From Actinotalea endophytica (GTDB lineage Bacteria > Actinomycetota > Actinomycetes > Actinomycetales > Cellulomonadaceae): 64,000 bases of DNA. The notes under the pieces are model-generated. The model searched no databases. It was not told where the DNA came from and saw only the letters and a program-made list of their open reading frames with translations. Position numbers and translations under genes: made by a program. Shown piece after piece: positions 8,152-46,409 of this stretch (the first letter of the stretch is position 1; every line of letters starts with the position of its first letter). The stretch is from contig NZ_JAOVZU010000007.1 of assembly GCF_025717005.1 (NCBI RefSeq), positions 124,001 to 188,000 on the forward strand. The letters run 5' to 3'.

Positions 8152-8156
8152 GACGG

Positions 8157-8197
8157 CGCACGACCCGGTGATCGCGGGGCGATCACCGGGCCGTGCG
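8157..8197. terminator. Bidirectional hairpin terminator
   Basis: An 18-base arm at 8157-8174 pairs with 8180-8197 with a single mismatch around a five-base loop. It sits exactly between the convergent EAL gene and the HesB-like gene. There is no T run, as is common for terminators in very G+C-rich actinobacteria. Confidence 0.75.
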
Positions 8198-8202
8198 TGC
8201 GC

Positions 8203-8481: not shown

Positions 8482-8601
8482 GGCTCTCTCTTCTTTCCGG
8501 GTACGTGCAGGCGGTGGCGCCTGCTCGTCCACCGTCACCCGCGGGCTGGAGGTGGGCAACCCAGGGCCCGGAGGCATCCCACCCAGCGGACCAGGTCCGT
8601 G

Positions 8602-9948
8602 TCAGCGATCGGACCGCCGGTCGTCCTGCCCGGGCGGGCGGAGCCCTTCCGCGTGGTGCTCACGGTCGGCGATCACCTGGTCGCCGGGACCGGTGAACGC
8701 CTTCGACCGCTCGAGGGCCGACAGGCTACCGGTGAACAGCCCGGCGTCGCGGCCGCCGTCGACCAGCACCGTCTCCGCCGAGCCGGCCGGGAGCTCGCGG
8801 GTCCCGGGTTCCGGTGCGGGTTCTGCGCTCGGCATCGCACGTCGGCCGGTCCCGCCGGCCGGGGTGACGGGGCCGGGGACGCCGGCGCCTCCGGCCGGTT
8901 CCCAGCGCGTCCGCGGCAGTGACTCCGGGTGCTCGCGCTGCAGCCACGCGACCAGCCCCTCGCGCACCGCGCACCGCAGGTCCCACAGGGTCGGCGCGTC
9001 CGCCGCCGACGCGAGCGCCCGGATCCGGACCTTGCCGTCGACCGCGTCGGTGACCTGGAGAACGCCGACCCGGTGGTCCCACAGCTCGCTGGTCTGCAGG
9101 ATCCGCATCAGCTCGGCGCGCATCCGGCCGACCGGCACCGTCCAGTCCACGTCGAGCTCGACCGTTCCGAGCAGGTCGGCGGCCCGCCTGGTCCAGTTCT
9201 CGAACGGCGTGGTCGCGAAGTAGGTCGACGGCAGGATGAGCCGCCGGTCGTCCCAGATGTGCACCACGACGTAGGTCATGGTGATCTCCTCGATCCTCCC
9301 CCAGTGCCCCTCGACCACCACGACGTCGTCGAGCCGGATCGCGTCGGTGAAGGCGAGCTGCACCCCGGCGAACACGTTGCCGAGCGAGGTCTGCGCCGCG
9401 AGGCCGGCGATCACCGACAGCACGCCGGCCGACGCCAGCAGCCCGGCGCCGATCGTGCGTGCGCCGTCGAAGGTGAGCAGTGCCGCGCCGATCGCGACGA
9501 CGGCGAGCACCAGCACGGTGAGCCGGCGGGCGACGCTGATCTGCGTCCTGACCCGTCGCGCGTGCCGGTCGTCCCGGCCGCCGACCTGGTAGCGCGCGAG
9601 CGCGGCGTCCTCGGCCACGAAGGCCAGTGCGGCGACCAGCCAGGCGCCGGCGAAGATCAGCGCGATGAGCAGCAGGTGCTGCACCCAGATCATCCAGTCC
9701 GGTCGCGGCCGGCTCGTCGCGATCAGCAGCGCGATCCACACGGCCGCCACGAGGAGCACGGCGCGCAGCGGTCGGCGGGCGCGCCGGGAGAGCGCCTCGG
9801 CGAGCCGGGTGTGCCGCCCGACCGCCCTGGTGAGGGCCGCGAGGACCTCGGCGAGCACGAGTGCGAGGATCAGCGCGGCCGCGACCGCGAGGATGATCGT
9901 GACGCCGTCGGTGACGGCTGGGGGGACGTCGACAGCTCGGTGCAGCAT
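8602..9948 (-). CDS. MscS family mechanosensitive ion channel
   Basis: The 448-residue protein has membrane helices around residues 15-40, 62-78, 88-112 and 145-160. The pore-lining MscS helix follows (IGAGLLASAGVLSVIAGLAA), then QTSLGNVFAGVQLAFTDAIRLDD, the beta-domain signature. The cytoplasmic domain includes GRIEEITMTYVVVHIWDDRR. About 110 poorly conserved residues are added at the C-terminus. It should open under membrane tension to release osmolytes. No ribosome-binding site precedes the ATG; instead TAGCCT lies six bases upstream, suggesting a leaderless transcript. Confidence 0.92.
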   Translation of the reverse strand: MLHRAVDVPPAVTDGVTIILAVAAALILALVLAEVLAALTRAVGRHTRLAEALSRRARRPLRAVLLVAAVWIALLIATSRPRPDWMIWVQHLLLIALIFAGAWLVAALAFVAEDAALARYQVGGRDDRHARRVRTQISVARRLTVLVLAVVAIGAALLTFDGARTIGAGLLASAGVLSVIAGLAAQTSLGNVFAGVQLAFTDAIRLDDVVVVEGHWGRIEEITMTYVVVHIWDDRRLILPSTYFATTPFENWTRRAADLLGTVELDVDWTVPVGRMRAELMRILQTSELWDHRVGVLQVTDAVDGKVRIRALASAADAPTLWDLRCAVREGLVAWLQREHPESLPRTRWEPAGGAGVPGPVTPAGGTGRRAMPSAEPAPEPGTRELPAGSAETVLVDGGRDAGLFTGSLSALERSKAFTGPGDQVIADREHHAEGLRPPGQDDRRSDR

Positions 9949-10053
9949 CGGTCCAGGCTAGACGCCGCAGCCGCAACCGCCGGACGGGTGACGGAACCAT
10001 CCGGCATGTGTTCGGTTTTGTTTGATTCTGATGACTCATGGGGGAAACTGCGC

Positions 10054-10059
10054 TAGCAT
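10054..10059 (+). promoter_or_regulatory. Probable -10 element of a leaderless galE promoter
   Basis: TAGCAT ends seven bases before the ATG at 10067. With this spacing transcription would begin at or next to the start codon. No convincing -35 element or ribosome-binding site at the right distance is visible. Confidence 0.4.
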
Positions 10060-10066
10060 GGCGGCC

Positions 10067-11062
10067 ATGACCTGGATGGTGACCGGCGGGGCCGGATACA
10101 TCGGTGCGCACGTGGTGCGCGCCTTCCTCGACGAGGGCATCGACGTCGTCGTGCTGGACGACCTGTCGAGCGGGCACGCGGACTTCGTCCCCGACGGCGT
10201 GCCGTTCGTGCGCGGCAGCATCCGCGACCAGCCCCTCGTCGCCGCAGCCCTGCGCGAGCACGCCTGCGAGGGCGTGGTGCACCTGGCCGGCTTCAAGTAC
10301 GCCGGGGTCAGCGTGCAGCGCCCCCTGCACACCTACGCCGAGAACGTCACCGGCACCGTGTCGCTGCTCGCCGCGATGGCCGAGGCCGACGTCACCGCGA
10401 TCGTCTTCTCCTCCTCCGCCGCCGTGTACGGCACACCCGACGTCGACCTGGTCACCGAGGAGACGCCCACCACGCCGGAGTCGCCCTACGGCGAGTCCAA
10501 GCTGATCGGTGAGTGGGTCATCCGCGACCAGGCCCGCGCGACCGCCGACGGCCCCCACCCGTTGCGGCACACGTCGCTCCGCTACTTCAACGTGGTGGGC
10601 TCGCAGGGCTCGTTGTACGACTCGAGCCCGCACAACCTCTTCCCGCTCGTGCTCGACGCGCTCGTCGCGGGCCGGACGCCGCGGGTCAACGGCGTCGACT
10701 ACCCGACCCCCGACGGCTCGTGCGTGCGGGACTACATCCACGTCGCCGACCTCGCCGCGACCCACGTCGCCGCCGCGCGGGCGCTCGCCGGTGGCCGCGA
10801 GCTCCAGCCGGTCTACAACCTGGGCAGCGGCGCCGGCTCGTCGGTGCTGGAGATCATGGCCGCGATGGCGGCCGGCACCGGGATCGACTTCACCCCCGAG
10901 ATCGCACCGCGCCGCCCGGGCGACCCGGCCCGGATCGTCGCCTCCGGCGAGGCGGCCGCACGCGACCTCGGGTGGCGCATGACGCACGATCTCGAGTCGA
11001 TGGTCGCCTCGGCGTGGCGCGCGCGACAGCTGCTCGAGGAGTCCACGGCCGGCGCTGACTGA
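10067..11062 (+). CDS. galE: UDP-glucose 4-epimerase
   Basis: The 331-residue protein matches GalE over its whole length: the NAD-binding GGAGYIGAHVVRAFL at the start, VVVLDDLSSGH, HLAGFKYAGVSVQRPL, the catalytic Ser in SSSAAVYG with YGESK (Tyr-x3-Lys) and the CVRDYIHVADLAATHV segment. It interconverts UDP-glucose and UDP-galactose for galactose use and cell-wall glycans. The usual start MTWMVTGGAGY supports ATG 10067 over ATG 10058, and a -10-like TAGCAT seven bases upstream fits leaderless expression. Confidence 0.95.
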   Translation: MTWMVTGGAGYIGAHVVRAFLDEGIDVVVLDDLSSGHADFVPDGVPFVRGSIRDQPLVAAALREHACEGVVHLAGFKYAGVSVQRPLHTYAENVTGTVSLLAAMAEADVTAIVFSSSAAVYGTPDVDLVTEETPTTPESPYGESKLIGEWVIRDQARATADGPHPLRHTSLRYFNVVGSQGSLYDSSPHNLFPLVLDALVAGRTPRVNGVDYPTPDGSCVRDYIHVADLAATHVAAARALAGGRELQPVYNLGSGAGSSVLEIMAAMAAGTGIDFTPEIAPRRPGDPARIVASGEAAARDLGWRMTHDLESMVASAWRARQLLEESTAGAD

Positions 11063-11095
11063 CCGGCCCGAGGACGGTCGAGCCGGGGCTCGCGC

Positions 11096-12004
11096 TCAGG
11101 CGCCGATCGCCTGCAGCTCGGCCAGCCGTTCGACCACCTGGTCGAGCACCCGCTCGCTGCCCGCGTACACACCGTCCGGGCGCGGCCAGTGCACCACCAC
11201 GTCGGTGAACCCGAGCGCCGCCGCCCGCTCGACACCCTCGGTGAGCACCTCGAGCGAGCTCATCGAGAAGACCGGTGCACCGTCCAGGCTCAGGTAGCGA
11301 TCCACCGACGCAGGGTCCCGCCCGGCCGCCTCGAACCGGGCCTCGGCCCGCTCGACGAGCGCCGCGAGCCCGGTCCACCAGCGGTCCTGGTCGTCGCCGT
11401 CGCCGCCCTCGCCGACCCCGCCGGCCGCCGGGCCGTAGGTGATCCAGCCCTGCCCGTACCGGGCGACCAGGTCCAACGCCCGGGGCCCCTGCGCGGCGAC
11501 CGCGAACGGCACCCGCGGCTGCTGCACGCACCCCGGCAGCATCCGGGCACCGCGGGCCTCGTACCACCCGCCGTCATGGTCGGTCACGGGCGCCGTGAGC
11601 AGGCGGTCGAGCAGCCCCACCCACTCGACGAACCGGTCGGTCCGCTCACGGGCGCTCGGCGCCGGGCCGAGCACCTCGGCGTCGAACCCCGAGCCGCCCG
11701 ACCCGAGCCCCAGCAGCAGCCGGCCGCCGCTGATGTCGTCCAGTCCCATCACGTCCTTGGCGAACGGCACCGGGTGGCGGAAGTTGGGGCTCGCGACGAA
11801 CGTGCCGAGCCGGATCCGCTCGGTCGTCGCGGCGGCCGCGGCCAGCAGCGGCACGGTGGCCAGCCACGGTCCGTCGGCCAGCGAGCGCCACGCCAGGTGG
11901 TCGTACGTCCAGGCGTGGTCGAAGCCCCACTCCTCGGCGGCCCGCCACCGCGCGGCGTCCGCAGCCCAGCGCTGCTCGGGCAGCAGCACGATCCCGATCC
12001 GCAT
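11096..12004 (-). CDS. LLM-class, probably F420-dependent, oxidoreductase
   Basis: The 302-residue protein has the luciferase-like TIM-barrel pattern: MRIGIVLLPEQ at the N-terminus, GFDHAWTYDHLAW, ERIRLGTFVASPNFRHPVPF, and the DDISGGRLLLGLGSGG loop typical of F420-binding members. The substrate is unknown. Its start lies 11 bases downstream of the metallopeptidase stop, so the two are probably one operon. The ATG at 12004 has GAGAGGGAG upstream. Confidence 0.88.
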   Translation of the reverse strand: MRIGIVLLPEQRWAADAARWRAAEEWGFDHAWTYDHLAWRSLADGPWLATVPLLAAAAATTERIRLGTFVASPNFRHPVPFAKDVMGLDDISGGRLLLGLGSGGSGFDAEVLGPAPSARERTDRFVEWVGLLDRLLTAPVTDHDGGWYEARGARMLPGCVQQPRVPFAVAAQGPRALDLVARYGQGWITYGPAAGGVGEGGDGDDQDRWWTGLAALVERAEARFEAAGRDPASVDRYLSLDGAPVFSMSSLEVLTEGVERAAALGFTDVVVHWPRPDGVYAGSERVLDQVVERLAELQAIGA

Positions 12005-12015
12005 CGTTCTCCCTC

Positions 12016-12372
12016 TCAGTCCCAGCCCAGCTCGTGCAGTCGCTCGTCGGAGATCCCGAAGTGGTGCGCCACCTCGTGCACGATCGTCACGGCGACCTCC
12101 TCGGCCACCTCCTCGACCGTGTCGCAGAAGGCCAGGGTCGGCAGACGGAACACCGTGATCCGATCCGGCAGCGACCCGGCGCCCCACCACTGGTCGCGCT
12201 CGGTGAGGGCGACCCCCTCGTACAGCCCGAGCAGGTCGTCCGGCTCACCCGGGGGCGGGTCGTCCTCGACGAGGACCACGACGTCGTCCATCATCTCGGC
12301 GAGGTCCGTCGGGATCAGGTCCAGCGCATCGCGCACGGCGTCCTCGAACTCGTCCCGGGACATCTGCACCAC
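12016..12372 (-). CDS. Zincin-like metallopeptidase family protein
   Basis: The 118-residue protein belongs to the minimal zincin family (DUF2695/MMP-like group). It has a helical N-terminus (FEDAVRDALDLIPTDLAEMMDDVVVLVED), LLGLYEGVALTER, ITVFRLPTL, and the zinc site HEVAHHFGISDERLHELGW (HExxH-x8-H). Physiological substrates of these proteins are not established. I chose GTG 12372 because GGCAGGATGG lies about six bases upstream; an ATG at 12363 in the same frame is an alternative. It is probably the first gene of a pair with the LLM oxidoreductase. Confidence 0.85.
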   Translation of the reverse strand: MVQMSRDEFEDAVRDALDLIPTDLAEMMDDVVVLVEDDPPPGEPDDLLGLYEGVALTERDQWWGAGSLPDRITVFRLPTLAFCDTVEEVAEEVAVTIVHEVAHHFGISDERLHELGWD

Positions 12373-12402
12373 GCGACCATCCTGCCCTGTGCGCGATCGA
12401 CT

Positions 12403-12432
12403 TTGGCGGTTCGGCACATGTGCCCGTATGAT
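12403..12432 (+). promoter_or_regulatory. Predicted promoter of the tRNA cluster
   Basis: TTGGCG at 12403-12408 and TATGAT at 12427-12432 are separated by 18 bases, close to the sigma-70 consensus. The spacer contains the perfect palindrome GGCACATGTGCC (12413-12424). The first tRNA starts 41 bases after the -10 hexamer. Confidence 0.6.
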
Positions 12433-12473
12433 TCCCGAGGTTCTGGGCGCGAGGCGTCCCGGGCGCCCACCCG

Positions 12474-12546
12474 GCCCCCATCGTCTAGCGGCCTAGGACC
12501 CCGCCCTTTCACGGCGGTAGCACGGGTTCGAATCCCGTTGGGGGTA
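12474..12546 (+). tRNA. tRNA-Glu (anticodon TTC)
   Basis: A complete cloverleaf is readable. The acceptor GCCCCCA pairs with TGGGGGT, the anticodon stem CCGCC/GGCGG encloses CTTTCAC with anticodon TTC, and the T arm is CGGG-TTCGAAT-CCCG. The discriminator is A and no CCA is encoded. It is the first of three tRNA genes with 29 and 34 base gaps, probably transcribed together. Confidence 0.97.
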
Positions 12547-12575
12547 CGAACGAAGCAGGACCTTGTTCCACACAA

Positions 12576-12649
12576 GGCCCCGTAGCGCAGTTGGTTAGCG
12601 CGCCGCCCTGTCACGGCGGAGGTCGCGGGTTCAAGTCCCGTCGGGGTCG
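12576..12649 (+). tRNA. tRNA-Asp (anticodon GTC)
   Basis: The acceptor GGCCCCG pairs with CGGGGTC through a G-T wobble. The anticodon stem CCGCC/GGCGG encloses CTGTCAC with anticodon GTC, and the T loop is TTCAAGT. The discriminator is G, as expected for tRNA-Asp. The gene follows tRNA-Glu by 29 bases. Confidence 0.97.
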
Positions 12650-12683
12650 CTCGTCGGTCCGGTCACACCGGACCGGAGGTCGA

Positions 12684-12756
12684 GGCCACTTAGCTCAGTT
12701 GGTAGAGCGTTCGACTGAAAATCGAAAGGTCGGCAGTTCGACCCTGCCAGTGGCCA
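12684..12756 (+). tRNA. tRNA-Phe (anticodon GAA)
   Basis: The acceptor GGCCACT pairs with AGTGGCC. The anticodon loop CTGAAAA carries anticodon GAA, the D arm reads GCTCAGTTGGTAGAGC and the discriminator is A. It is the last tRNA of the cluster and is followed by a hairpin terminator. Confidence 0.97.
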
Positions 12757-35978: not shown

Positions 35979-38027
35979 TCAGCGGGGCTTGGTCTGCTTC
36001 TCCAGGCGGGGCGCGGTGCCCGAGGCGCGCTCGGCGCGGGCGTGGGCGCGGGCCTCGTCCTGGCGCTGCGCCTCGGCGCCGGTGGCGATCGCCGCACGCA
36101 GGTGCGCGGGGCCGTAGCCGAACGCGTCGACCAGGTCCTGGGCGTGCGGGCGGAGCCGCTCCAGCAGCCGTTCGACGTACGAGCCGACGACCCGCGCACG
36201 CTGCGCCGTGAGCCGGCCGTGGATCAGGTACCAGGCGAGGTTGCGCTCGACGAGCGTCAGCCCGAACAGGTCCCGCAGCCAGATCAGCACCTGGCGCGTC
36301 CCCGGGTCGGACACCTGGGACACGCCCGCGGTGAACGCCTCCCACTGCAGCAGGTCGGCGTGCGCCCGTGCGGCCTCGATCAGGGCGTGCTGGTGCTGGT
36401 CGAGCAGGCGGGCCGCCTCCGCACGCGACGCCTTCGCCGCGGGCCGGAGCGCCATGACCAGCTCCTCGACCATGGTCTCGACCCGGTCGGTGAGCAGCTC
36501 GCGCTGCGCGTCGACGTTGCGCACCTGGCCCACCGAGCGGCGGGCGTCGTACCCGTCGGAGAGCGTCTGGACCACGCGCCGCAGCGGGGTGCGGTGCATC
36601 GCCGCGTCGGCGGCGCGCTCGGCGACCAGACGGGCCATCCCGCTCGCGTCGATGTGTGCGAGCTCCTTGGCCGCGTCCGCGAGCAGCCGCTTGGCCACCA
36701 GCTGCAGCAGCACCGTGTTGTCGCCCTCGAAGGTCACGTACACGTCGAGGTCCGCCCGTAGCGAGACGAGCCGGTTCTCGGCGAGGAAGCCCGCGCCGCC
36801 GCACGCCTCGCGGCAGGCCTGGAGCGTGTCGAGCGCATGCCACGTGGAGGACGCCTTGAGCGCGGCGGCGATGGTCTCGAGGTCCTGGCGGTCGTCGTCG
36901 GAGTCGGCGCGACCGGAGAAGACGTCGTCGAACGCGGCGAGCAGCCGCTCGTGGGCGAACGTCTGGGCGTAGGTCTGGGCGAGTCGCGGGAGGAGCCGAC
37001 GCTGGTGCTCCTGGCGGTCCAGCAGCACGACCTCGTCGGTGTCCGTGGCACCGGTGAACTGCCGTCGCTGGTTCGCGTAGGTCACCGCGATCGCGAGCCC
37101 GATCTTGCTCGCGTTGACGGCTGCGCCGTCCAACGACACCCGGCCCTGGACGAGCGTGGACAGCATCGTGAAGAACCGCCGGCCGGGGCTGGCGATCGGC
37201 GAGCTGTAGGTGCCGTCCGCGGCCACGTCGCCGTACCTGTCGAGCAGGTCGGTGCGCGGGACGCGGACGTGGTCGAAGTGCAGCCGGCCGTTGTCGATCC
37301 CGTTGAGCCCACCCTTGACGCCGTCGTCGTCGCCGCCGATCCCGGGCAGGAACGCGCCGGTCTCCGGGTTGCGGATCGGGACGTAGAACGCGTGCACGCC
37401 GTGGTTGACCGGTTCGCCACCGGGCCGAGCCGTGATCAGCTGCGCGAACACCACTGCGGCCGTGCCGTGCAGAGCCGCGTTGCCGAGGTAGTCCTTCCAC
37501 GCCCCCCGGAACGGGGTGTCGATGACGAACTCCTCGGTGGCCGGGTCGTACGTCGCGGTGGTGGCGATGCTCGCCACGTCGGAGCCGTGCCCGGTCTCGG
37601 TCATCGCGAACACGCCCGGCACGTCGACGCTCATCGCGCCCGGAAGCAGCCGGGCGTGGTGGTCGGCCGTGCCGAGGTGCAGGATCGCGGAGGCGAACAG
37701 CCCCCACTGCACACCGGCCTTGATCTGCAGCGACGGGTCTGCCGCGATGAGCTCCTCGAACCGCGCGAGCGAAGCACCGTGGTCGTCGGCGCCGCCGAGG
37801 GCGGTCGGGAAGGCACGCAGCACGTCACCCTCGACCGCGAGGGTCTTGAGCTGGCTGAGCACCCGGTCCCGGTGCTCGGCGACCGGCATGCCCTCGACCT
37901 TGTGGAACCGCGGGTCGGCCACGGTGGCGCGAGCGGCCCGGCGGATGTCGGCCCAGCGCCCGAGCAGCAGCTGCTCGAGCCCGGCGACGTCGACGGCGGC
38001 CTCGGCGGTGGGTGTCAGCGTGGTCAT
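35979..38027 (-). CDS. Acyl-CoA oxidase / acyl-CoA dehydrogenase family flavoprotein
   Basis: The 682-residue length and domain order (alpha, beta, then two helical domains) fit peroxisomal-type acyl-CoA oxidases better than 380-residue dehydrogenases. Diagnostic parts are QWGLFASAILHLGTADHH, FAMTETGHGSDVASIATTATYD, LDGAAVNASKIGLAIAVTYANQRRQF and LQACREACGGAGFLAENR (the catalytic-Glu region). It would oxidise acyl-CoA to trans-2-enoyl-CoA. Its ATG overlaps the tetR stop by four bases, with GAGGAG upstream, so regulator and enzyme are coupled. Confidence 0.9.
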   Translation of the reverse strand: MTTLTPTAEAAVDVAGLEQLLLGRWADIRRAARATVADPRFHKVEGMPVAEHRDRVLSQLKTLAVEGDVLRAFPTALGGADDHGASLARFEELIAADPSLQIKAGVQWGLFASAILHLGTADHHARLLPGAMSVDVPGVFAMTETGHGSDVASIATTATYDPATEEFVIDTPFRGAWKDYLGNAALHGTAAVVFAQLITARPGGEPVNHGVHAFYVPIRNPETGAFLPGIGGDDDGVKGGLNGIDNGRLHFDHVRVPRTDLLDRYGDVAADGTYSSPIASPGRRFFTMLSTLVQGRVSLDGAAVNASKIGLAIAVTYANQRRQFTGATDTDEVVLLDRQEHQRRLLPRLAQTYAQTFAHERLLAAFDDVFSGRADSDDDRQDLETIAAALKASSTWHALDTLQACREACGGAGFLAENRLVSLRADLDVYVTFEGDNTVLLQLVAKRLLADAAKELAHIDASGMARLVAERAADAAMHRTPLRRVVQTLSDGYDARRSVGQVRNVDAQRELLTDRVETMVEELVMALRPAAKASRAEAARLLDQHQHALIEAARAHADLLQWEAFTAGVSQVSDPGTRQVLIWLRDLFGLTLVERNLAWYLIHGRLTAQRARVVGSYVERLLERLRPHAQDLVDAFGYGPAHLRAAIATGAEAQRQDEARAHARAERASGTAPRLEKQTKPR

Positions 38028-38788
38028 GACGGCTCCTCGACGGTGAGTGCGGTGTCTGCGCTGGGTACGTCTGCGGTGGCGCCCGCTGCGCGGGTCTGCC
38101 GGGGTGCGCCTGCGGCGTCCTCGGCGACCTCGCCGCTGCGGGCGAGCGCGCTGACCGGGCCGGTCCACAGCCAGGTGGTGACCCGCTCGGTGAGCTCGGC
38201 GCGGGTCGGCGCGTCCGGGTCGTCGCGGTGCGCGAGCCACCACTCGCCGGCGCCGCGGACGAAGCCGACCGCGCCGCTGCCCCACAGGTCCGCGAGCGCG
38301 CCGTCGCCGTGTCCCGACAGGAGCCGGGCGAAGGGGCGCGCGACCAGGGTCGCGACGGCGTCCATGAAGTGCCCGAGCGGCGCCGACGCGTGCTCGCTGA
38401 CCGGCCGGGTCACGAACCAGTAGACGTTCGGCGAGGCCTCGACCATCGCGAGGTAGGCGTCGATCATGGCGCGCAGACCGTCACGCGGGGTCACGCCACG
38501 GCGCCCCGCCTCGTCGAGCGCGACGTTGAGGTCGGCGACCACGGCGGCCCCGACGGCGGCCTGCAGACCGGGCTTGTCGACGAAGTACCGGTAGACGATC
38601 GACTTGGAGGTCCCGGCCGCGGCGGCGATCTCGTCCATGGACACGTCGGGCCCGCGGCGGTGCACGGCGCGGCGCGCGGCGCGGGCGAGCTCGGCGCGAC
38701 GGGCCTCGCGGTGCGCCTCCCACCGCGTGGAACGTCCGTCCGCGGCGACGTCCTGCGCCGCCGATCGCTCCGGTGCTGATCGACTCAC
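38024..38788 (-). CDS. TetR family regulator of the acyl-CoA oxidase gene
   Basis: The 254-residue protein has an N-terminal TetR helix-turn-helix (GPDVSMDEIAAAAGTSKSIVYRYFVDK, written here as the region about residues 55-80) and a helical ligand domain. A GTG start at 38788 places a 15-base inverted repeat directly before the gene. In that repeat TACCGT could be the -10 element of a leaderless transcript, so binding would repress its own synthesis. The operon with acyl-CoA oxidase suggests that an acyl-CoA is the inducer; this is inference. The same operator recurs before the thiolase operon at 42.8 kb. Confidence 0.88.
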   Translation of the reverse strand: MSRSAPERSAAQDVAADGRSTRWEAHREARRAELARAARRAVHRRGPDVSMDEIAAAAGTSKSIVYRYFVDKPGLQAAVGAAVVADLNVALDEAGRRGVTPRDGLRAMIDAYLAMVEASPNVYWFVTRPVSEHASAPLGHFMDAVATLVARPFARLLSGHGDGALADLWGSGAVGFVRGAGEWWLAHRDDPDAPTRAELTERVTTWLWTGPVSALARSGEVAEDAAGAPRQTRAAGATADVPSADTALTVEEPS

Positions 38789-38803
38789 GATACTGACGGT
38801 ATC
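38789..38803. promoter_or_regulatory. TetR operator copy 1 (GATAC-N5-GTATC)
   Basis: GATACTGACGGTATC abuts the tetR GTG start. Read on the minus strand it contains TACCGT seven bases before the start. The pattern GRTAC-N5-GTAYC is shared with two copies at 42764-42794. A palindromic AAGTACTT follows at 38804-38811. Confidence 0.65.
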
Positions 38804-38837
38804 AAGTACTTTCGGTTCCGGACACCCGAGGAATCGA

Positions 38838-38851
38838 TGGGATCGGTCCCA
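38838..38851. promoter_or_regulatory. LacI-type operator resembling the CebR/CelR box
   Basis: TGGGA-TCGG-TCCCA, embedded in the longer perfect repeat CGATGGGA-TCGG-TCCCATCG (38835-38854), matches the TGGGA-nCGn-TCCCA form of the cello-oligosaccharide regulator box (TGGGAGCGCTCCCA) except at two central bases. It lies 146 bases upstream of the sugar-binding protein gene. The cognate LacI regulator is not next to it. Confidence 0.6.
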
Positions 38852-38902
38852 TCGACCCAGCACAGCCGCGCTCGGACGTTATGGAACCGTGGCCTGTGCT
38901 TG

Positions 38903-38931
38903 TTGCCGGATGTCATCGACGGGGCAATGAT
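38903..38931 (+). promoter_or_regulatory. Possible promoter of the sugar ABC operon
   Basis: TTGCCG (38903-38908) and AATGAT (38926-38931) are 17 bases apart and 66 bases before the binding-protein ATG. The LacI-type palindrome is 52 bases further upstream, more distant than usual for direct repression of this promoter. Confidence 0.35.
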
Positions 38932-38996
38932 CGAAGAGTTCGCCCGTACGACGCGCTTGCGCGCCGGGAGACAACGACGTCAGACGAGGAGAGAAC

Positions 38997-40370
38997 ATGA
39001 GGTCTATCGGTCGCCGACGCACGATGATCGTCGGCTCCGCCGTGGCCGCCATGGGCTTGGTGCTCACGGCGTGTTCCAGCGGTTCAAGCGGAGGTGAGAG
39101 CAGCAGCAGCTCGTCGAGCAGCGACAGCGGTTCGGCCAGCGGTGACTGCGCGGCCTACGCCGACTACATGGGGCACGAGGGGACGACGGTGACCATGTTC
39201 GCCTCGATCCTGAGCCCCGAGTCCGATTCGCTCGAGGCATCCTGGGCCGACTTCAGCGACTGCACCGGCATCACGATCCAGTACGAGGGCACGAACGAGT
39301 TCGAGTCGCAGTTGCCCGTGCGGGTTCAGGGTGGCCAGGCTCCCGACCTGGCGATCATCCCCCAGCCCGGCCTGCTCGCTCGCATGGCCCCGAACGCTGT
39401 CGCGGCCCCCCAGGCTGTGGCGGACAACGTCGACACGTACTGGGCGGCCGGTTGGAAGGACTACGCCACGGTCGACGGAACCTTCTACGGCGCCCCGATG
39501 AGCGCGAACGCCAAGTCGCTCGTCTGGTACTCGCCTTCGATGTTCGCCGACGCGGGCTACGAGGTCCCGACCACGTGGGACGACCTGATGGCGCTGTCCG
39601 ACCAGATCGTCGCCGACGGCGACGTCAAGCCGTGGTGCGGCGGCATCGGCTCCGGGACCGCGACGGGCTGGCCGGCCACCGACTGGCTCGAGCAGATCGT
39701 GCTGCGCAACTCCGGGCCCGACGTCTACGACCAGTGGGTCAACCACGACGTGATGTTCTCGTCTCCGGAGATCAAGGACGCGATGAGCATCCTCGAGGCC
39801 TGGATGAAGAACCCTGACTACGTCAACGGTGGCCACGGCGACGTCGCCTCGATCGCGACCACGACCTTCCAGGACGCCGGTCTGCCGATCCTCCAGGGCC
39901 AGTGCTACATGCTGCAGCAGGCGTCGTTCTACGCCGCCCAGTGGCCCGAGGGCACCAACGTCGGCCCGGACGGCGACGTGTGGGCCTTCTACCTGCCGGC
40001 CATGAACGACACCTACGGCAAGCCGGTCGTCGGCGGCGGCGAGTTCGTCGTCTCCTTCGCCGACCGTCCCGAGGTCGCGGCCGTGCAGACCTACCTGTCG
40101 ACCCCGGAGTGGGCGACCAGCCGGATCGAGCAGGCCAGCGGCTGGGTGTCGGCGAACAACGGCGTGGACCCGTCGGTCTACACCGCGCCGATCGACCAGC
40201 TCTCCGCCGAGCAGCTGACCGACCCTGAGGCCACCTTCCGGTTCGACGCCTCCGACCTGATGCCGTCCGCGGTCGGCTCCGGCGCCGAGTGGACCGAGTT
40301 CACCAACTGGTTCGCCGGCAGCGAGTCGACCGACCAGATGCTGCAGAACATCGACGCAGCCTGGCCGTGA
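38997..40370 (+). CDS. Sugar ABC transporter substrate-binding lipoprotein
   Basis: The 457-residue precursor has a twin-arginine-like basic head, a hydrophobic core and lipobox LTACSSG, then a Ser-rich linker. The mature part is a family 1 (MalE-type) solute-binding protein: VTMFASILSPESDSLEASW, GGQAPDLAIIPQPGLLARM, APMSANAKSLVWYSPSMF and TPEWATSRIEQASGWVSAN. It resembles alpha-glucoside binding proteins (AglE type), a family-level guess. GAGGAGAGA precedes the ATG. Two permease genes follow after a hairpin; no ATPase is encoded nearby, so a shared MsiK-type ATPase is likely. Confidence 0.88.
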   Translation: MRSIGRRRTMIVGSAVAAMGLVLTACSSGSSGGESSSSSSSSDSGSASGDCAAYADYMGHEGTTVTMFASILSPESDSLEASWADFSDCTGITIQYEGTNEFESQLPVRVQGGQAPDLAIIPQPGLLARMAPNAVAAPQAVADNVDTYWAAGWKDYATVDGTFYGAPMSANAKSLVWYSPSMFADAGYEVPTTWDDLMALSDQIVADGDVKPWCGGIGSGTATGWPATDWLEQIVLRNSGPDVYDQWVNHDVMFSSPEIKDAMSILEAWMKNPDYVNGGHGDVASIATTTFQDAGLPILQGQCYMLQQASFYAAQWPEGTNVGPDGDVWAFYLPAMNDTYGKPVVGGGEFVVSFADRPEVAAVQTYLSTPEWATSRIEQASGWVSANNGVDPSVYTAPIDQLSAEQLTDPEATFRFDASDLMPSAVGSGAEWTEFTNWFAGSESTDQMLQNIDAAWP

Positions 40371-40412
40371 TCGGCTGACCGCCACCGACAGGTGACGACC
40401 TAGCGCAGAAGA

Positions 40413-40446
40413 GGCGCCCGGATCCGGTTCGCCGGGTCCGGGCGCC
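40413..40446 (+). promoter_or_regulatory. Intra-operon hairpin between binding protein and permease genes
   Basis: A 15-base arm (GGCGCCCGGATCCGG) pairs with its complement with one G-T pair around a TTCG tetraloop, 43 bases after the binding-protein stop. Such hairpins stabilise upstream mRNA or stop part of the transcripts, giving more binding protein than permease. A similar one occurs in the second sugar operon. Confidence 0.75.
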
Positions 40447-40516
40447 TGTGCTAGGGCTAGTACTGACGACAGCCGTCGGGGCGCAACGTCGCATCCCGAA
40501 CCCGAAGGAGGGACGC

Positions 40517-40567
40517 GTGTCCGACTCCACCACTTCCCCCGTTCCCGCGCTCGGAGGCTTGCCATGA
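40517..40567 (+). CDS. Candidate 16-residue ORF coupled to the permease start
   Basis: GTG 40517 has a strong ribosome-binding site (GAAGGAGGG, five bases upstream). The frame reads VSDSTTSPVPALGGLP and stops at TGA 40565-40567, overlapping the permease ATG (40564). The permease has its own weaker GGAGG within the small frame. This may be a translational-coupling device rather than a functional peptide. It is too short to judge by composition. Confidence 0.4.
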   Translation: MSDSTTSPVPALGGLP

Positions 40568-41727
40568 GCCAGAGCAGGACAGCCGTTCCCGAGACGGCCA
40601 CGACCCGTCGGGCGCCCGCATCGGCGGGCACCTCCAACCGCTCCTTCTGGATGTGGACCACCGGGTTCTTCGCCCTGGTGCTCCTGCTGATCGTGCTCGG
40701 CATGATGCACGTCATCTCGGTCCCGGTCTTCACGTCGCCGACGTCGCTGGTCGGGGCCTCGCTGTGGAAGCTCAGCGGCGGCGCCGCCGCGATCCTGGTG
40801 GTCGCCGCAGTGCTGTTCGTCGTGTTCTTCATCGCCGGCCAGGCTTCGGGTCGGGTGTCCCGACCCGTGGGCATCCTGGTCTTCCTCGGCCCGGCGGCGC
40901 TGTTCATGCTCGTCGGACTGGTGATCCCTGCGATCCGGACGTTCATGCTCAGCTTCTACGACGCGAGCGGCCAGGCCGCGGTCGGATTCGACAACTACGC
41001 CTGGGCGTTCACCAACTCGAACATGCAGACCGTGCTCATCAACACGGTGCTGTGGCTCGCGATCGCACCGACGGCGTCGACCGCGTTCGGACTCGTGCTC
41101 GCACTGCTCGCGGACCGGATGGGCAAGCGCAGCGAGTCGGCGACCAAGTCCCTGATCTTCCTGCCGATGGCGATCTCGTTCGTCGGCGCGAGCGTGATCT
41201 GGAAGTTCGTCTACGAGTACAAGGACCCGGCCCAACCACAGATCGGGCTGCTGTCCCAGATGTGCATCTGGCTGGGCTGGAAGAACCCGCCGAACTGGCT
41301 GCTCACCACACCGCTGAACACGTTCATGCTGATCGTGATCATGGTCTGGGTGCAGACCGGCTTCGCGATGGTGGTCCTCTCCGCGGCGATCAAGGCGATC
41401 CCGACCGACGTGCTCGAGGCGGCCTCGTTGGACGGCGCGACCGGCTGGCAGATGTTCGTCCGGGTCACCATCCCGATGATCCGCGGCACCCTCATCGTGG
41501 TGTTCACCACGATCCTCATCGCCGTGCTGAAGATCTTCGACATCGTCGCCACGATGACCGGCGGCAACTTCAACACCAGCGTGCTGTCGTACGAGATGTA
41601 CCGGCAGACCTTCGTCCAGGGTGACCAGGGCCACGGCTCTGCACTCGCCGTGATCCTCTTCGTCGGCGTGGTCCCCGTGCTGATCTACAACATCATGCAG
41701 CTGCGGAAGGAGCGTGCTGTCCGATGA
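40564..41727 (+). CDS. Sugar ABC transporter permease (MalF/AglF type)
   Basis: The 387-residue protein has about eight membrane helices, with a longer N-terminal hydrophobic region than usual (residues 28-110), then the binding-protein-dependent permease core. The ATPase-contact loop reads DVLEAASLDGATGWQMFVRVTIPMI (EAA motif, about residues 280-305). It forms the channel with the next gene, whose ATG overlaps this stop by four bases. The start overlaps a 16-codon frame. Confidence 0.9.
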   Translation: MSQSRTAVPETATTRRAPASAGTSNRSFWMWTTGFFALVLLLIVLGMMHVISVPVFTSPTSLVGASLWKLSGGAAAILVVAAVLFVVFFIAGQASGRVSRPVGILVFLGPAALFMLVGLVIPAIRTFMLSFYDASGQAAVGFDNYAWAFTNSNMQTVLINTVLWLAIAPTASTAFGLVLALLADRMGKRSESATKSLIFLPMAISFVGASVIWKFVYEYKDPAQPQIGLLSQMCIWLGWKNPPNWLLTTPLNTFMLIVIMVWVQTGFAMVVLSAAIKAIPTDVLEAASLDGATGWQMFVRVTIPMIRGTLIVVFTTILIAVLKIFDIVATMTGGNFNTSVLSYEMYRQTFVQGDQGHGSALAVILFVGVVPVLIYNIMQLRKERAVR

Positions 41728-42689
41728 GCACCGTCGACTCGCAGCAGACCACCAAGGTCGATGCCCACACGGTCACCTCGAGCACCGGGACCAAGGTTCG
41801 CACCACGCTGAGCAGCCGGCTCTCGTCCGTGCTGGTCGTCGTGCTGACCCTGCTCTGGACGATCCCGACGTTCGGGCTGTTCGTCACGTCGTTCCGGCCG
41901 GACACCGAGGTGGCGAGCTCGGGCTGGTGGACGGTCTTCACCAACCCGGTCTTCACCCTGGACAACTACAACACCGTGCTGTTCTCGGGCGGCTACAACG
42001 TCCAGGGCGGCCTCATCCCGTACTTCGTCAACTCGCTGGTGGTCTCGATCCCGGGCTCGCTCTTCCCGCTCGCACTGGCGACCATGGCGGCGTACGCACT
42101 CGCCTGGATCCCGTTCAAGGGCAGCAACACGATCTTCTTCATCGTGTTCGGTCTGCAGGTGGTCCCGCTGCAGCTCGCGCTGGTCCCGCTGCTCCGGCTG
42201 TTCAACACCGGCGTGCACATCGGTGACGTGACCGTGTTCCCGGCTCTGGGGATCACCGGCCACTTCGCGTCGTTGTGGGTGACCCACACGATGTTCGCCA
42301 TGCCGCTGGCGATCTTCCTGCTGCACAACTTCATGGCGCAGCTGCCGCGCGACCTGATGGAGGCGGCCCGCGTGGACGGGGCCAACTCCTTCCTGATCTT
42401 CCGCAAGATCGTGCTGCCGCTGTCCGCACCCTCGATCGCGTCCTTCGCGATCTTCCAGTTCCTGTGGGTGTGGAACGACCTGCTCGTGTCGTTGACCTTC
42501 GTCGGTGCGAGCAAGGAGTTCGTGTCGCCGCTGACCACCCGCCTGCAGGCGCTGGTCGGCAACTTCGGGTCGCACTGGGAGCTGCTGGCGCCGTCGGCGT
42601 TCGTGGCGATCGTCGTCCCGCTGATCGTGTTCTTCGCGCTGCAGAAGTACTTCGTGCGCGGGCTCCTGGCGGGGTCCGTGAAGGGCTGA
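41724..42689 (+). CDS. Sugar ABC transporter permease (MalG/AglG type)
   Basis: The 321-residue protein has six predicted membrane helices and the EAA loop DLMEAARVDGANSFLIFRKIVLPLS. FVTSFRPDTEVASSGWW after the first helix and a C-terminal FFALQKYFVRGLLAGSVKG are typical of MalG-type partners. It pairs with the upstream permease in the same importer. It is the last gene of the operon and is followed within 11 bases by a strong terminator. Confidence 0.93.
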   Translation: MSTVDSQQTTKVDAHTVTSSTGTKVRTTLSSRLSSVLVVVLTLLWTIPTFGLFVTSFRPDTEVASSGWWTVFTNPVFTLDNYNTVLFSGGYNVQGGLIPYFVNSLVVSIPGSLFPLALATMAAYALAWIPFKGSNTIFFIVFGLQVVPLQLALVPLLRLFNTGVHIGDVTVFPALGITGHFASLWVTHTMFAMPLAIFLLHNFMAQLPRDLMEAARVDGANSFLIFRKIVLPLSAPSIASFAIFQFLWVWNDLLVSLTFVGASKEFVSPLTTRLQALVGNFGSHWELLAPSAFVAIVVPLIVFFALQKYFVRGLLAGSVKG

Positions 42690-42699
42690 GACGCGCTCG

Positions 42700-42737
42700 G
42701 ACGAAGGGCGTCGCGCCGGTGCGCGGCGCCCTTCGTC
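42700..42737 (+). terminator. Terminator of the sugar ABC operon
   Basis: GACGAAGGGCG (42700-42710) pairs perfectly with CGCCCTTCGTC (42727-42737), and GCGC/GCGC forms an inner stem. A T-rich stretch is absent but the stem is long and isolated. Confidence 0.75.
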
Positions 42738-42763
42738 ATGTCCGGGTACCGACGTCGACGTGC

Positions 42764-42794
42764 GGTACCGCGGGTATCAGGTACCGTACGTACC
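42764..42794. promoter_or_regulatory. Two tandem TetR-type operators before the thiolase operon
   Basis: GGTAC-CGCGG-GTATC (42764-42778) and GGTAC-CGTAC-GTACC (42780-42794) both fit GRTAC-N5-GTAYC, the pattern at the start of the TetR gene at 38.8 kb. The second shares 11 of 15 bases with the minus-strand form of that copy and includes TACCGT as a possible -10 element. They lie 62 bases before the thiolase ATG. Confidence 0.6.
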
Positions 42795-42856: not shown

Positions 42857-44146
42857 ATGGCCGGAAGCAGGCGCCCCGTCGTCGTCGGGGGCAACCGCAC
42901 ACCGTTCGCGAGAGCCGGGGGCGCCTACGCCCACGTCTCGAACCTCGACCTGCTCACCGCAGCGCTCGACGGGCTGGTCGCCCGCTTCGGGCTCGCCGGC
43001 GAGCGGCTCGGCGAGGTCGCGGCCGGCGCGGTGCTCAAGCACACCCGGGACTTCAACCTGACCAGAGAAGCCGTGCTCGGCTCGGCGCTGTCGAACGAGA
43101 CCCCCGCCTACGACGTTCAGATGGCCTGCGCGACCGGCATGGAGACGATCGCCTCGATCGCCGACAAGATCCGCCTCGGCCGCCTCGACGTCGGCGTGGC
43201 CGGCGGCGTCGACTCCGCGTCCGACGCACCCATCGTGGTGACCGAGCAGCTCCGGGCCGCGCTGCTCGACCTCAACCGGGCCAAGACCGTGCAGGCGAAG
43301 CTCGCCGCGGTCGCCAAGATCCGGCCCTCGCACCTCGCCCCCGTCGCCCCCGACGTGGCCGAGCCGCGTACCGGGCTCTCGATGGGCGAGCACCAGGCCC
43401 TCACCACCGCGGCCTGGGGCATCAGTCGCGAGGAGCAGGACGAGCTCGCCCTGGCCAGCCACCAGCGCCTCGCGGCCGCCTACGACGCAGGCTTCTTCGA
43501 CGACCTCGTCACGCCCTACCGGCGCCTCGTGCGGGACGCCAACCTGCGGCCGGACACCTCGATGGAGAAGCTCGGCGCGCTGGCGCCCGTCTTCGGCAAG
43601 CGGCTCGACACCCCCGCCACGATGACCGCGGGCAACTCCACGCCGCTGACCGACGGCGCGTCCACCGTGCTGCTCGCCGACCAGTCCTGGGCAGCCGAGC
43701 GCGGTCTGCCGGCGCTCGCCGAGGTGGTCGACCTCGAGGCCGGCGCGGTGGACTTCGTGCACGGCAAGGACGGCCTGCTGCTGGCCCCGGTCCATGCCGT
43801 ACCGCGGCTGCTCGCGCGGCACGGCATGAGCCTCGCGGACTTCGAGATCGTCGAGATCCACGAGGCCTTCGCCGCCACCGTGCTCGCCACCCTCAAGGCC
43901 TGGGAGGACCCGGACTTCTGCCGCGACCGGCTGGGTCGGGACGGACCCCTCGGCTCGATCGACCGGGCCCGGCTCAACGTGCACGGCTCGTCGCTCGCGG
44001 CCGGGCACCCGTTCGCCGCGACCGGCGGGCGGATCGTCGCCACGGCGGCCAAGGAGCTCGCGTCCCGCGGCTCGGGCGCACGGGGACTCGTCTCGGTGTG
44101 CGCGGCCGGTGGGCAGGGCGTCGTCGCGATCCTGGAGGCAGTGTGA
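42857..44146 (+). CDS. Acetyl-CoA C-acyltransferase (thiolase, FadI-like)
   Basis: The 429-residue protein is a thiolase with the nucleophilic Cys in DVQMACATGMETIASIAD, TAGNSTPLTDGAS, EIHEAFAATVLATL, the active-site loop NVHGSSLAAGHPFAATGGR and the second Cys in VSVCAAGGQG. It would cleave 3-ketoacyl-CoA in beta-oxidation. GGAGGAG precedes the ATG. It heads a three-gene operon with a ketoacyl reductase and a MaoC dehydratase, all overlapping by four bases. Confidence 0.92.
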   Translation: MAGSRRPVVVGGNRTPFARAGGAYAHVSNLDLLTAALDGLVARFGLAGERLGEVAAGAVLKHTRDFNLTREAVLGSALSNETPAYDVQMACATGMETIASIADKIRLGRLDVGVAGGVDSASDAPIVVTEQLRAALLDLNRAKTVQAKLAAVAKIRPSHLAPVAPDVAEPRTGLSMGEHQALTTAAWGISREEQDELALASHQRLAAAYDAGFFDDLVTPYRRLVRDANLRPDTSMEKLGALAPVFGKRLDTPATMTAGNSTPLTDGASTVLLADQSWAAERGLPALAEVVDLEAGAVDFVHGKDGLLLAPVHAVPRLLARHGMSLADFEIVEIHEAFAATVLATLKAWEDPDFCRDRLGRDGPLGSIDRARLNVHGSSLAAGHPFAATGGRIVATAAKELASRGSGARGLVSVCAAGGQGVVAILEAV

Positions 44147-45492
44147 GCGACACCTACCTCGAGCTGGTCAACTCCGGGTTCACCGCGGAGCTCGCCAAGC
44201 GGCTCGGCCTGCCGCGTCCCGCCCGGCTGCGCCGGTTCCGGGCCGGCGACCAGCTGGTGCCCGGGCCGGTCCTGGTGCTCGCCGACGGTGCGGCCGGGGC
44301 CGACGCCGACGCGCTCGCCGCGACGCTGCTGGACCGGGACCTCGACGTGCGCCGACGCCCGGACGGCGACCACCGGTGGGGTGCGGTGGTCGTGGTGCTC
44401 ACCGGCGTCACCGGGCCGGCCGACCTGTCCGGCCCGGCGCTCGACCTCGCCGGAGTGCTCAAGAAGCTGGCGCACGGCGCACGCGTCGTCACGGTGTCCC
44501 GCGCAGCGGCCGAGGCCACCGACCCCGCGGCCGCGGCAGCCCGGCAGGGTGTCGACGGCCTGCTCCGCTCCCTCGCCAAGGAGCTGCGCGGTGGCGCCAC
44601 CGGCAACGGCCTGGTGCTCGCCGACGGGACCGCGGTGACCTCGCCGTCCGCGCTGGGTGCGCTGGAGTTCCTGCTGTCCGCGAAGAGCGCGTTCGTCGAC
44701 GGGCAGCTGCTCACGGTGCAGGGCACCGGCGGACACCCGCCGGCGGACCCCGACCGCCCGCTCGACGGCCAGGTCGCCCTCGTCACGGGTGCGGCGCGCG
44801 GGATCGGCGCGGCGATCGCCCGGACCCTCGCGCGGGACGGCGCCCGACTGCTGCTGGTCGACGTGCCCGCCGCAGGCGACGGTCTCGCCGCGGTGGCCAA
44901 CGAGACCCGCGGCACGGCGCTGCAGCTCGACCTGACCTCGCCGGACGCCCCGCAGCGCCTGGTCGAGCACGTGCGCTCGCGGTTCGGCCACCTCGACGTC
45001 GTGGTGCACAACGCCGGCATCACGCGCGACAAGCTGCTCGCCAACATGACGCCCGACCGCTGGGACAGCGTGCTCGCGGTCAACGTGATCGCGCCGTTGC
45101 GGGTGACCGAGGCGCTGCTCGACGCCGGCGTGCTGGGCGAGGCGCCGCGGGTCGTGTGCCTCGCATCCACCAGCGGGATCGCGGGCAACCGCGGCCAGAC
45201 GAACTACGCGGCGTCCAAGGCCGGGGTGATCGGCATGGTCCGGGCCCAGGCGCCGGTGCTCGCGTCGGCCGGCGGCACGGTCAACGCGGTCGCACCGGGC
45301 TTCATCGAGACCGAGATGACCGCACGGATCCCCGCCCTGACCCGGCAGGTCGCGCGGCGGCTGAACTCCCTGCAGCAGGGCGGCCTGCCGACCGACGTCG
45401 CCGAGGCGATCGCTTTCCTCGCCTCGCCGCAGGCGGGCGGGATCTCCGGCCAGGTGCTGCGGGTCTGCGGGCAGAACATGGTGGGTGCGTGA
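44143..45492 (+). CDS. 3-oxoacyl-[ACP/CoA] reductase, long FabG4-like form
   Basis: The 449-residue protein has an N-terminal Rossmann-like half without catalytic residues and a C-terminal SDR domain. The latter has GAARGIGAAIARTLARDGA (cofactor), HNAGITRDKLLANM, the Ser in CLASTSGIAGN and YAASK (Tyr-x3-Lys). This two-part layout is that of high-molecular-weight FabG4 proteins of actinobacteria, which reduce 3-oxoacyl-CoA or -ACP with NADH. The GTG start overlaps the thiolase stop (GTGA). Confidence 0.92.
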   Translation: MSDTYLELVNSGFTAELAKRLGLPRPARLRRFRAGDQLVPGPVLVLADGAAGADADALAATLLDRDLDVRRRPDGDHRWGAVVVVLTGVTGPADLSGPALDLAGVLKKLAHGARVVTVSRAAAEATDPAAAAARQGVDGLLRSLAKELRGGATGNGLVLADGTAVTSPSALGALEFLLSAKSAFVDGQLLTVQGTGGHPPADPDRPLDGQVALVTGAARGIGAAIARTLARDGARLLLVDVPAAGDGLAAVANETRGTALQLDLTSPDAPQRLVEHVRSRFGHLDVVVHNAGITRDKLLANMTPDRWDSVLAVNVIAPLRVTEALLDAGVLGEAPRVVCLASTSGIAGNRGQTNYAASKAGVIGMVRAQAPVLASAGGTVNAVAPGFIETEMTARIPALTRQVARRLNSLQQGGLPTDVAEAIAFLASPQAGGISGQVLRVCGQNMVGA

Positions 45493-46409
45493 GCGGCGCA
45501 GCGCACGGCGCGAGCCACCCGGGCCGCGCCGTGCACGGCGACGGCCCGGTGATCGAGCTCGGCTCGGTGCCGTCGCTCGGCGCATCGCAGCGGCGAGGAC
45601 TGGCCGGCTCGGCCGCTGCGGCCGCAACCCGCCGCCGCGACGTCGCGGCCGACGCCCTCGACGGAACCACCCTGCTCGCGCAGGGTCTGACCACCGACCC
45701 GGACCGGCTCACCGCCTACCAGCACCTGGTAGGCGCCCCGGCGCAGGACCGGCTGCCCGCCGGGTTCGTCCACGTGCTCGCGTTCCCGCTCGCCAACGCG
45801 CTCATGGTGCGCGACGGCTTCCCGCTGCCGCTGCTCGGCCTCGTCCACCTGGCCAACGAGGTCACCCAGCAGCGGCCGGTCGTGCTCGGCGAGGAGGTGG
45901 ACGTCGCGGTGCACGCCGAACGGCTCACCGCGCACCACCGCGGGGTGAGCGTCGACGTCGTGGCCGAGGTCGGCGTGGCCGGCGAGCCGGTGTGGCGCGG
46001 CGTGTCGACCTACCTCGCCAAGGGCTACCGGCTGGACGGCGCGACGGCCGACCGGGCCGAGCGGCCCGAGTGGCACGCCCCGCAGCCCACCGGGGCCTGG
46101 CGCCTGGAGGCCGACCTCGGCCGCCGGTACGCGGCGGTCTCCGGGGACCGGAACCCGATCCACACCTCGACGCTCGCGGCGAAGGCGTTCGGGTTCCCGC
46201 GGACCATCGCGCACGGGATGTACACCGCCGCCCGCGCGCTCGCCCACCTCGACGAGCCCGACGCATTCACCTGGCGGGCCGAGTTCGCCGCACCGATCGT
46301 CCTGCCGAGCACGGTGTCGGTGCGCGCCGGCACGGACGGCCCGGCCCGCGTGCTCGACGCGTGGGCCAAGCGGCACCAGCTGCACGTCACCGTCACCCCG
46401 CGGGGCTGA
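45489..46409 (+). CDS. MaoC-family hot-dog dehydratase
   Basis: The 306-residue protein has two hot-dog halves. The C-terminal half carries the hydratase 2 motif YAAVSGDRNPIHTSTLAAKAFGFPRTIAHGMYT (Asp, Asn and His of the active site, in segments of this block). The N-terminal half resembles FAS1-like dehydratase regions (LANEVTQQRPVVLGEEVDV). It would interconvert trans-2-enoyl- and 3-hydroxyacyl-CoA. The GTG start overlaps the reductase stop by four bases, completing a beta-oxidation set. Confidence 0.9.
   Translation: MSGAAHGASHPGRAVHGDGPVIELGSVPSLGASQRRGLAGSAAAAATRRRDVAADALDGTTLLAQGLTTDPDRLTAYQHLVGAPAQDRLPAGFVHVLAFPLANALMVRDGFPLPLLGLVHLANEVTQQRPVVLGEEVDVAVHAERLTAHHRGVSVDVVAEVGVAGEPVWRGVSTYLAKGYRLDGATADRAERPEWHAPQPTGAWRLEADLGRRYAAVSGDRNPIHTSTLAAKAFGFPRTIAHGMYTAARALAHLDEPDAFTWRAEFAAPIVLPSTVSVRAGTDGPARVLDAWAKRHQLHVTVTPRG

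Follow-up and report, generated by a model that had tools for sequence, protein, structure and literature searches.

We analyzed a 64,000-nucleotide stretch of the genome of Actinotalea endophytica (the window). It encodes a TetR-family regulator and an acyl-CoA oxidase (ACOX) on the minus strand and a thiolase, an SDR-type reductase and a MaoC-type dehydratase on the plus strand, with the genes of a sugar-type ABC transporter in between. The features of this locus are:

35979-38027, minus strand: acyl-CoA oxidase (ACOX), with an ATGA overlap with the stop codon of tetR
38024-38788, minus strand: tetR regulator with TetR_N and TetR_C_32 domains; the GTG start is a prediction
38789-38819, minus strand: predicted double operator of tetR-ACOX, GGAAC-N5-GTACT-T-GATAC-N5-GTATC; 18/20; kept in relatives
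38789-38803, plus strand: exact copy of the repeat, GATACTGACGGTATC, by pattern match in the window
38796-38801, minus strand: TACCGT, candidate -10 element of a leaderless tetR promoter, from sequence and conservation
38805-38819, plus strand: degenerate fourth copy, AGTACTTTCGGTTCC, from sequence and double-site consensus score
38997-42689, plus strand: sugar-type ABC insertion with genes for one binding protein and two permeases
38997-40370, plus strand: sugar-type binding protein
40564-41727 and 41724-42689, plus strand: sugar ABC permeases
42764-42794, plus strand: predicted double operator of the thiolase operon, GGTAC-N5-GTATC-A-GGTAC-N5-GTACC; 20/20
42764-42778, plus strand: exact copy, GGTACCGCGGGTATC, by pattern match in the window
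42780-42794, plus strand: exact copy, GGTACCGTACGTACC, by pattern match in the window
42782-42787, plus strand: TACCGT, candidate -10 element of the thiolase promoter, from sequence and conservation of the mirror element
42857-44146, plus strand: thiolase (acetyl-CoA C-acetyltransferase); NF006740 above cut-off
44143-45492, plus strand: SDR 3-oxoacyl reductase; NF006110 / PRK08261 above cut-off
45489-46409, plus strand: MaoC-type dehydratase; PF01575 above cut-off

Because tetR and ACOX overlap, they very likely form a single transcript, and the thiolase, SDR and MaoC genes (42857-46409) likewise overlap one another. The reading frame of tetR stays open upstream to a GTG at 38863; relatives favor the start at 38788. 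The encoded protein belongs to the TetR family, as it matches PF00440 with 40.8 bits (threshold 24) and PF19344 with 55.4 bits (threshold 27), and its predicted structure is all-helical (mean pLDDT of 78.5). The sugar ABC operon has no ATPase gene among its members. Before its binding-protein gene lies a palindrome, GATGGGATCGGTCCCATC (38836-38853), which is slightly changed in two relatives with the same operon (L011 and L013) and which we take to resemble the CebR/LacI-type box TGGGAGCGCTCCCA. This likeness suggests that the sugar ABC operon may have its own control.

The initial annotation had pointed to an inverted repeat, GRTAC-N5-GTAYC, once directly at the start of tetR and twice in tandem before the thiolase operon. 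A pattern search of the window recovered all three copies. The one at tetR (38789-38803) ends immediately before the GTG at 38788, and the other two (42764-42778 and 42780-42794) together form a double site. Just 0.07 occurrences were expected by chance, and none of 100 shuffled windows reached three; the repeat is not a chance feature of the window. The list of copies was incomplete, as it overlooked the degenerate copy at 38805-38819. With this fourth copy, the tetR site becomes a double site like that of the thiolase operon, with one exact half and one degenerate half. When we scored the window against the 20 specified letters of GRTAC-N5-GTAYC-N-GRTAC-N5-GTAYC, the next best place after the two sites (with frames overlapping them set aside) reached 14/20, and the maximum in each of 20 mononucleotide-shuffled windows was 14-16. 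By sequence, two 15-bp inverted repeats in tandem with a 16-bp pitch, spanning 31 bp, make up the predicted operator unit.

Across the 4.25-Mb genome, GRTAC-N5-GTAYC occurs at 13 places, versus 8 for a reversed control pattern, and 6 of the 8 places that we examined (of 10 outside the locus) lie inside an open reading frame that passes a GC3 filter. A lone copy elsewhere therefore says little, and it is the clustering and the architecture that carry weight. A model of the double site, whose training set included both sites of the window, found no third place in this genome among the 150 of 796 first-look candidates that were scored. We reject a wider regulon in this genome, since the model gave two places only among the candidates scored and single copies are near background.

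We then asked how the double site fares in relatives. Searching named genomes for the regulator, we obtained 44 loci, the majority from Cellulomonas and Actinotalea and some from Cellulosimicrobium, Pseudactinotalea, Georgenia and others. (The locus sets overlap: L012, L013, L015, L020 and L044 occur in both this set and the G-labelled genome set.) In 42 of these loci tetR was detectable by tblastn. The thiolase unit begins less than 700 bp away on the opposite strand in 37 of the 42; two (L011 and L013) have the sugar ABC operon of the window in between; and three (L039, L050 and L051) have no thiolase within the stretch examined. Absence of the repeat before orthologous genes had been named beforehand as an outcome that would speak against the regulon. 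Instead, a double site scoring at least 16/20 precedes tetR in 41 of the 42 loci, and in the exception, L050, a contig end cuts it. Few relatives (4 of 44 loci) match the strict 15-bp pattern exactly, since they usually have one degenerate half-site, and we discarded this pattern as a sole search tool. In L039 (Cellulomonas fimi HM71), ACOX does not follow tetR but is transcribed divergently from it, perhaps owing to a rearrangement or to misassembly close to the end of the contig.

In relatives, then, thiolase-SDR-MaoC and tetR-ACOX usually diverge directly from a single shared double site, which implies that the two operons of the window were most likely one divergent unit formerly. Among genomes of the same genus in our family sample, 9 of 10 have this plain divergent arrangement and one (G066, which is L013) carries the insertion. 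Of 121 genomes of the family, 112 have an ortholog of tetR (a 113th match, in G022, reached only 30%). The operator (E ≤ 0.1) is present in all 112 of these and, weakly, in two of the nine genomes without the ortholog (E = 0.08 and 0.0015; Fisher p = 6e-10 for co-occurrence, kinship ignored). For adjacency we used a script on fetched loci, which cover a part of the 112 genomes: all 19 family loci fetched by their operator have a double site of at least 16/20 before tetR. Exactly the nine genomes that have no tetR ortholog also lack a PF02737 (3HCDH_N) protein. These genomes seem to have lost beta-oxidation as a whole; as four of the nine are less than 90% complete, the absences may partly reflect missing sequence.

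The operator extends to the order. Among 248 genomes of the order, tetR matches (E ≤ 1e-12) occur in 158, and the operator model (R1) matches 70 (E ≤ 0.003) and none of the other 178. Outside the family, 50 of the 52 best operator matches adjoin a homolog of tetR; the two exceptions are G184, which has no tetR match, and G164, in which the operator is located elsewhere. These order-level matches are not wholly independent of the model, because R1 was trained partly on loci from outside the family (L044, which is G205, and probably L045, L046 and L048). All 20 loci of the order that we retrieved through their operator have a double site of at least 16/20 before tetR. At the level of the class, R1 matched 6 of 296 genomes, with just two of these outside the order.

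Outside the family, 89 genomes of the order have a tetR match and no match to the operator model. We examined 60 of these loci, chosen by hand (20 with good tetR scores and then 40 towards the weak end), and scored them with the looser GRTAC/GTAYC consensus as picked in the initial annotation. A site of 15-20/20 precedes tetR in 57 of the 60, with seven perfect sites, whereas just 29 of 5,833 windows away from strong sites reached 15/20. The thiolase is directly divergent from tetR in 58 of the 60. R1 misses families with different spacer letters, such as GATAC-CCAGC-GTACC-T-GATAC-GCTGG-GTATC, and a GTAGC half-site is common in some families. As the spacer letters differ among families, the conserved part is the GRTAC/GTAYC letters and the 16-bp pitch. 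Of the remaining loci, L183 shows no clear site (14/20 at best) although its thiolase is divergent, and L203 and L209 have neither a site nor a nearby thiolase; the tetR matches in these last two are probably other regulators. In L135 the thiolase was not found within the 16-kb stretch. ACOX adjoins tetR in most of the loci examined and was not detected in 5 of the 40 loci of the weak-end set. In L048, L159, L161 and L162 the array appears to consist of three units spaced at the 16-bp pitch, on which three dimers could align.

The reported splitting of the locus by a sugar ABC operon was observed locally: among the loci compared, in the window, L011 and L013 (which is also L089) only. By comparison of these loci with their relatives, the operon between tetR-ACOX and the thiolase unit is a local insertion. 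We examined six split genomes (the window, L011, L013, L143, L139 and L140), which, in our reading of the gene content, represent three events. Sugar ABC genes are the intervening DNA in the first three. In L143 an oligopeptide-type ABC operon lies between tetR and thiolase (7195-12713), with sites on both sides. In L139 (7992-10950) and L140 (3300-8080) the genes in between encode HMG-CoA reductase and HMG-CoA synthase, and this mevalonate branch may belong to the regulon there. All six genomes retain the tetR site and have a further site before the moved thiolase. The thiolase-side sites score 20, 18 and 19 of 20 in the window, L011 and L013 and only 15/20 in L139, L140 and L143. The thiolase-side site of the window scores 25.1 bits under the model in the orientation of tetR, versus 16.2 bits in the other (the model was trained on both orientations), which fits a direct-repeat duplication of one ancestral site.

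The double site has dyad symmetry centered on its middle base, and it carries putative promoter elements. Both double sites contain TACCGT (38801-38796 on the minus strand and 42782-42787 on the plus strand), which had been proposed as a -10 element. In an alignment of 91 distinct rows, which excludes the 40 weak-end loci that were examined later, TACNNT appears in the direction of tetR in 80 rows (columns 19-24) and in that of the thiolase in 78 (columns 13-8). We consider it possible, from sequence, that TACNNT is a -10 element on each strand. A start codon directly follows the double site in 73 of the 91 rows, and 63 rows have it in frame with tetR and with no intervening stop. An in-frame start that abuts the site suggests a leaderless tetR transcript, including in the window. 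In L041 and L043 the abutting frame closes, and the start of tetR must lie further down.

On the tetR side, GTGA-N6-TCAC lies immediately next to the operator in 63 of 78 distinct loci, and in 41 of 91 loci of the wider order set under a stricter rule. This is the CRP consensus as quoted in PMC5327559 (excerpts), and the A. endophytica genome has five matches to Crp-type genes. This CRP-like box shares its letters with the opening codons of tetR, but constraint on the DNA itself is favored by the final A of TCACA, which is mostly constant, and by the loci in which the frame is shifted. The second half of the box is missing in the window (38775-38788), L011 and L013. It is missing too in L021, L030, L042 and L046, which are free of the insertion, so a tie between loss of the box and the insertion is only a suggestion.

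The sites, their conservation, their position, their co-occurrence with tetR and their presence on both sides of the splits are observed, and we propose a circuit that would account for them. The repeat would be the operator of the adjacent TetR-family regulator, which would repress both the operon that encodes it (tetR-ACOX) and that of thiolase-SDR-MaoC, and long-chain acyl-CoA would probably release it. Two dimers could bind next to each other across the -10 region as far as the start codon, and perhaps three could do so on the longer arrays; we infer the number of dimers as well as the function of the promoters. In most relatives, one dyad between the divergent operons, with TACNNT on each strand, would serve both; in the window, insertion of the sugar ABC genes would have parted the operons, and each side has its double site. 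The single fatty-acid regulon that the initial annotation envisaged is supported by the shared conserved site, by the divergent relatives and by the sites that flank the splits, and would be such a circuit. We think that this proposal as a whole (a tandem TetR operator, repression of both operons and release by acyl-CoA) is quite likely to be correct. We predict binding, the direction of control and induction by acyl-CoA from the relatedness of the regulator to FasR, FadR, KstR and DesT. More speculatively, the 31-bp dyad might serve at once as an array for the repressor and as two divergent core promoters that overlap, with a leaderless tetR transcript; the two halves of the pathway would then share a single polymerase site and compete for it, and splits would require duplication of the dyad. 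We hold this extension only tentatively. If it is true, the split loci are a natural experiment on operator function across an actinobacterial order.

The regulator might bind these sites and yet sense a special acyl-CoA (branched, aromatic or dicarboxylic), so that the module would serve a special substrate instead of fatty acids in general. The unit holds just four enzymes, three PF02737 matches lie elsewhere in the genome where the operator model found no place, and KstR, one of the solved relatives, binds a steroid-CoA. Against this, the titles of structure entries have FasR binding C20-CoA, FadR binding stearoyl-CoA and DesT binding palmitoyl-CoA, and the family genomes that lack tetR are the same nine that lack PF02737, a point weakened by the incomplete assemblies among them. 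We view a special substrate as unlikely, if the most serious of the alternatives. It is less probable still that the enzymes build lipids (in chain elongation or membrane lipid remodelling) instead of degrading them. SDR reductases and MaoC proteins also act in fatty-acid synthesis, the SDR protein matches FabG-type models, and some loci (including the five in the weak-end set) have no detected ACOX; but ACOX lies beside tetR in most loci, which points to degradation, and the unit is absent from the same family genomes as PF02737.

The direction of control could also be the reverse, as TetR regulators can activate: FasR, the closest solved relative, is described as the activator of fas-acpS (PMC7382501, in part), and acyl-CoA would then turn the operons off. 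The double site, however, spans the candidate -10 elements up to the start codon, a position that would block polymerase, and autoregulation beside catabolic genes is the pattern of FadR and KstR. We judge activation to be improbable, on a par with the building direction. Finally, the 31 bp might be conserved chiefly as a bidirectional promoter, with the symmetry due to two -10 elements and no protein site. The frequency of TACNNT on both strands fits this explanation, but four GRTAC/GTAYC half-sites are kept beyond what -10 elements need, spacer letters vary by family and the sites persist on both sides of splits, and we give it very little credence.

If the repression circuit that we favor is correct, it predicts how fatty-acid breakdown is controlled in Cellulomonas and in numerous related families, specifying an exact operator and a short target list, and the split loci serve as ready-made natural controls. 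The set of ACOX, SDR reductase, MaoC hydratase and thiolase presumably resembles the peroxisomal ACOX/MFE-2/thiolase route. Its control would illuminate a second, R-specific-looking route of beta-oxidation beside the PF02737 (FadB-type) route. We rule out that the module is the sole route, as 112 of the 121 family genomes encode a PF02737 protein.

Among solved structures, FasR of Mycobacterium tuberculosis (PDB 6o6n/6o6o/6o6p) is the best relative of the regulator by profile (E = 2e-22) and the top Foldseek match, and both matches cover most of its length. Structures of FadR, KstR and DesT rank high by fold as well, amid unnamed TetR proteins, and EthR, RamR and DarR, which are not linked to lipids, are lower. 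The regulator is not FasR itself, as it scores 41.7 bits against NF053731, whose cut-off is 330; other genes of the genome score higher, the best of them, a closer relative of FasR, at 152.5 bits, and none exceeds the cut-off. FasR is a TetR protein that is released from DNA upon binding long acyl-CoA, according to excerpts of PMC7382501. Relatedness to FasR and to other acyl-CoA binders makes a long-chain acyl-CoA ligand likely here too. In contrast to FasR, which activates the fas-acpS genes (same excerpts), this regulator has degradative neighbors: ACOX and, in relatives, thiolase-SDR-MaoC.

KstR of mycobacteria is a TetR repressor of lipid degradation encoded beside a fad gene; its palindrome overlaps the -10 element, and many of its sites lie between divergent genes (PMC1995591, in excerpt). 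In our prediction from sequence, the A. endophytica regulator is alike in all of these respects: a TetR protein of lipid degradation with a site over the -10 element and divergent genes. The KstR motif, TnnAACnnGTTnnA, is unlike the GRTAC-N5-GTAYC tandem, so the sites found here are not KstR operators, and the KstR regulon is large and scattered, whereas we found one locus. FadR of Bacillus is a TetR regulator of fatty-acid degradation as well, with low identity (13-15% in the fold matches). In open PMC literature, as far as the texts retrieved go, we found no account of this regulator or its operator (subscription papers and regulon databases lay outside this scope). FadRSa of Sulfolobus acidocaldarius has just four genomic sites, in one gene cluster, and responds to acyl-CoA, and it binds as one or two dimers depending on the operator (PMC6449355, in part). 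It differs in being an archaeal protein, and the operator here is a tandem with a 16-bp pitch. As in the FadR-like class, an operator of its own appears, by sequence, to be common to the beta-oxidation operons. The regulator is newly recognized and of a kind that is already known, that of FadR and KstR.
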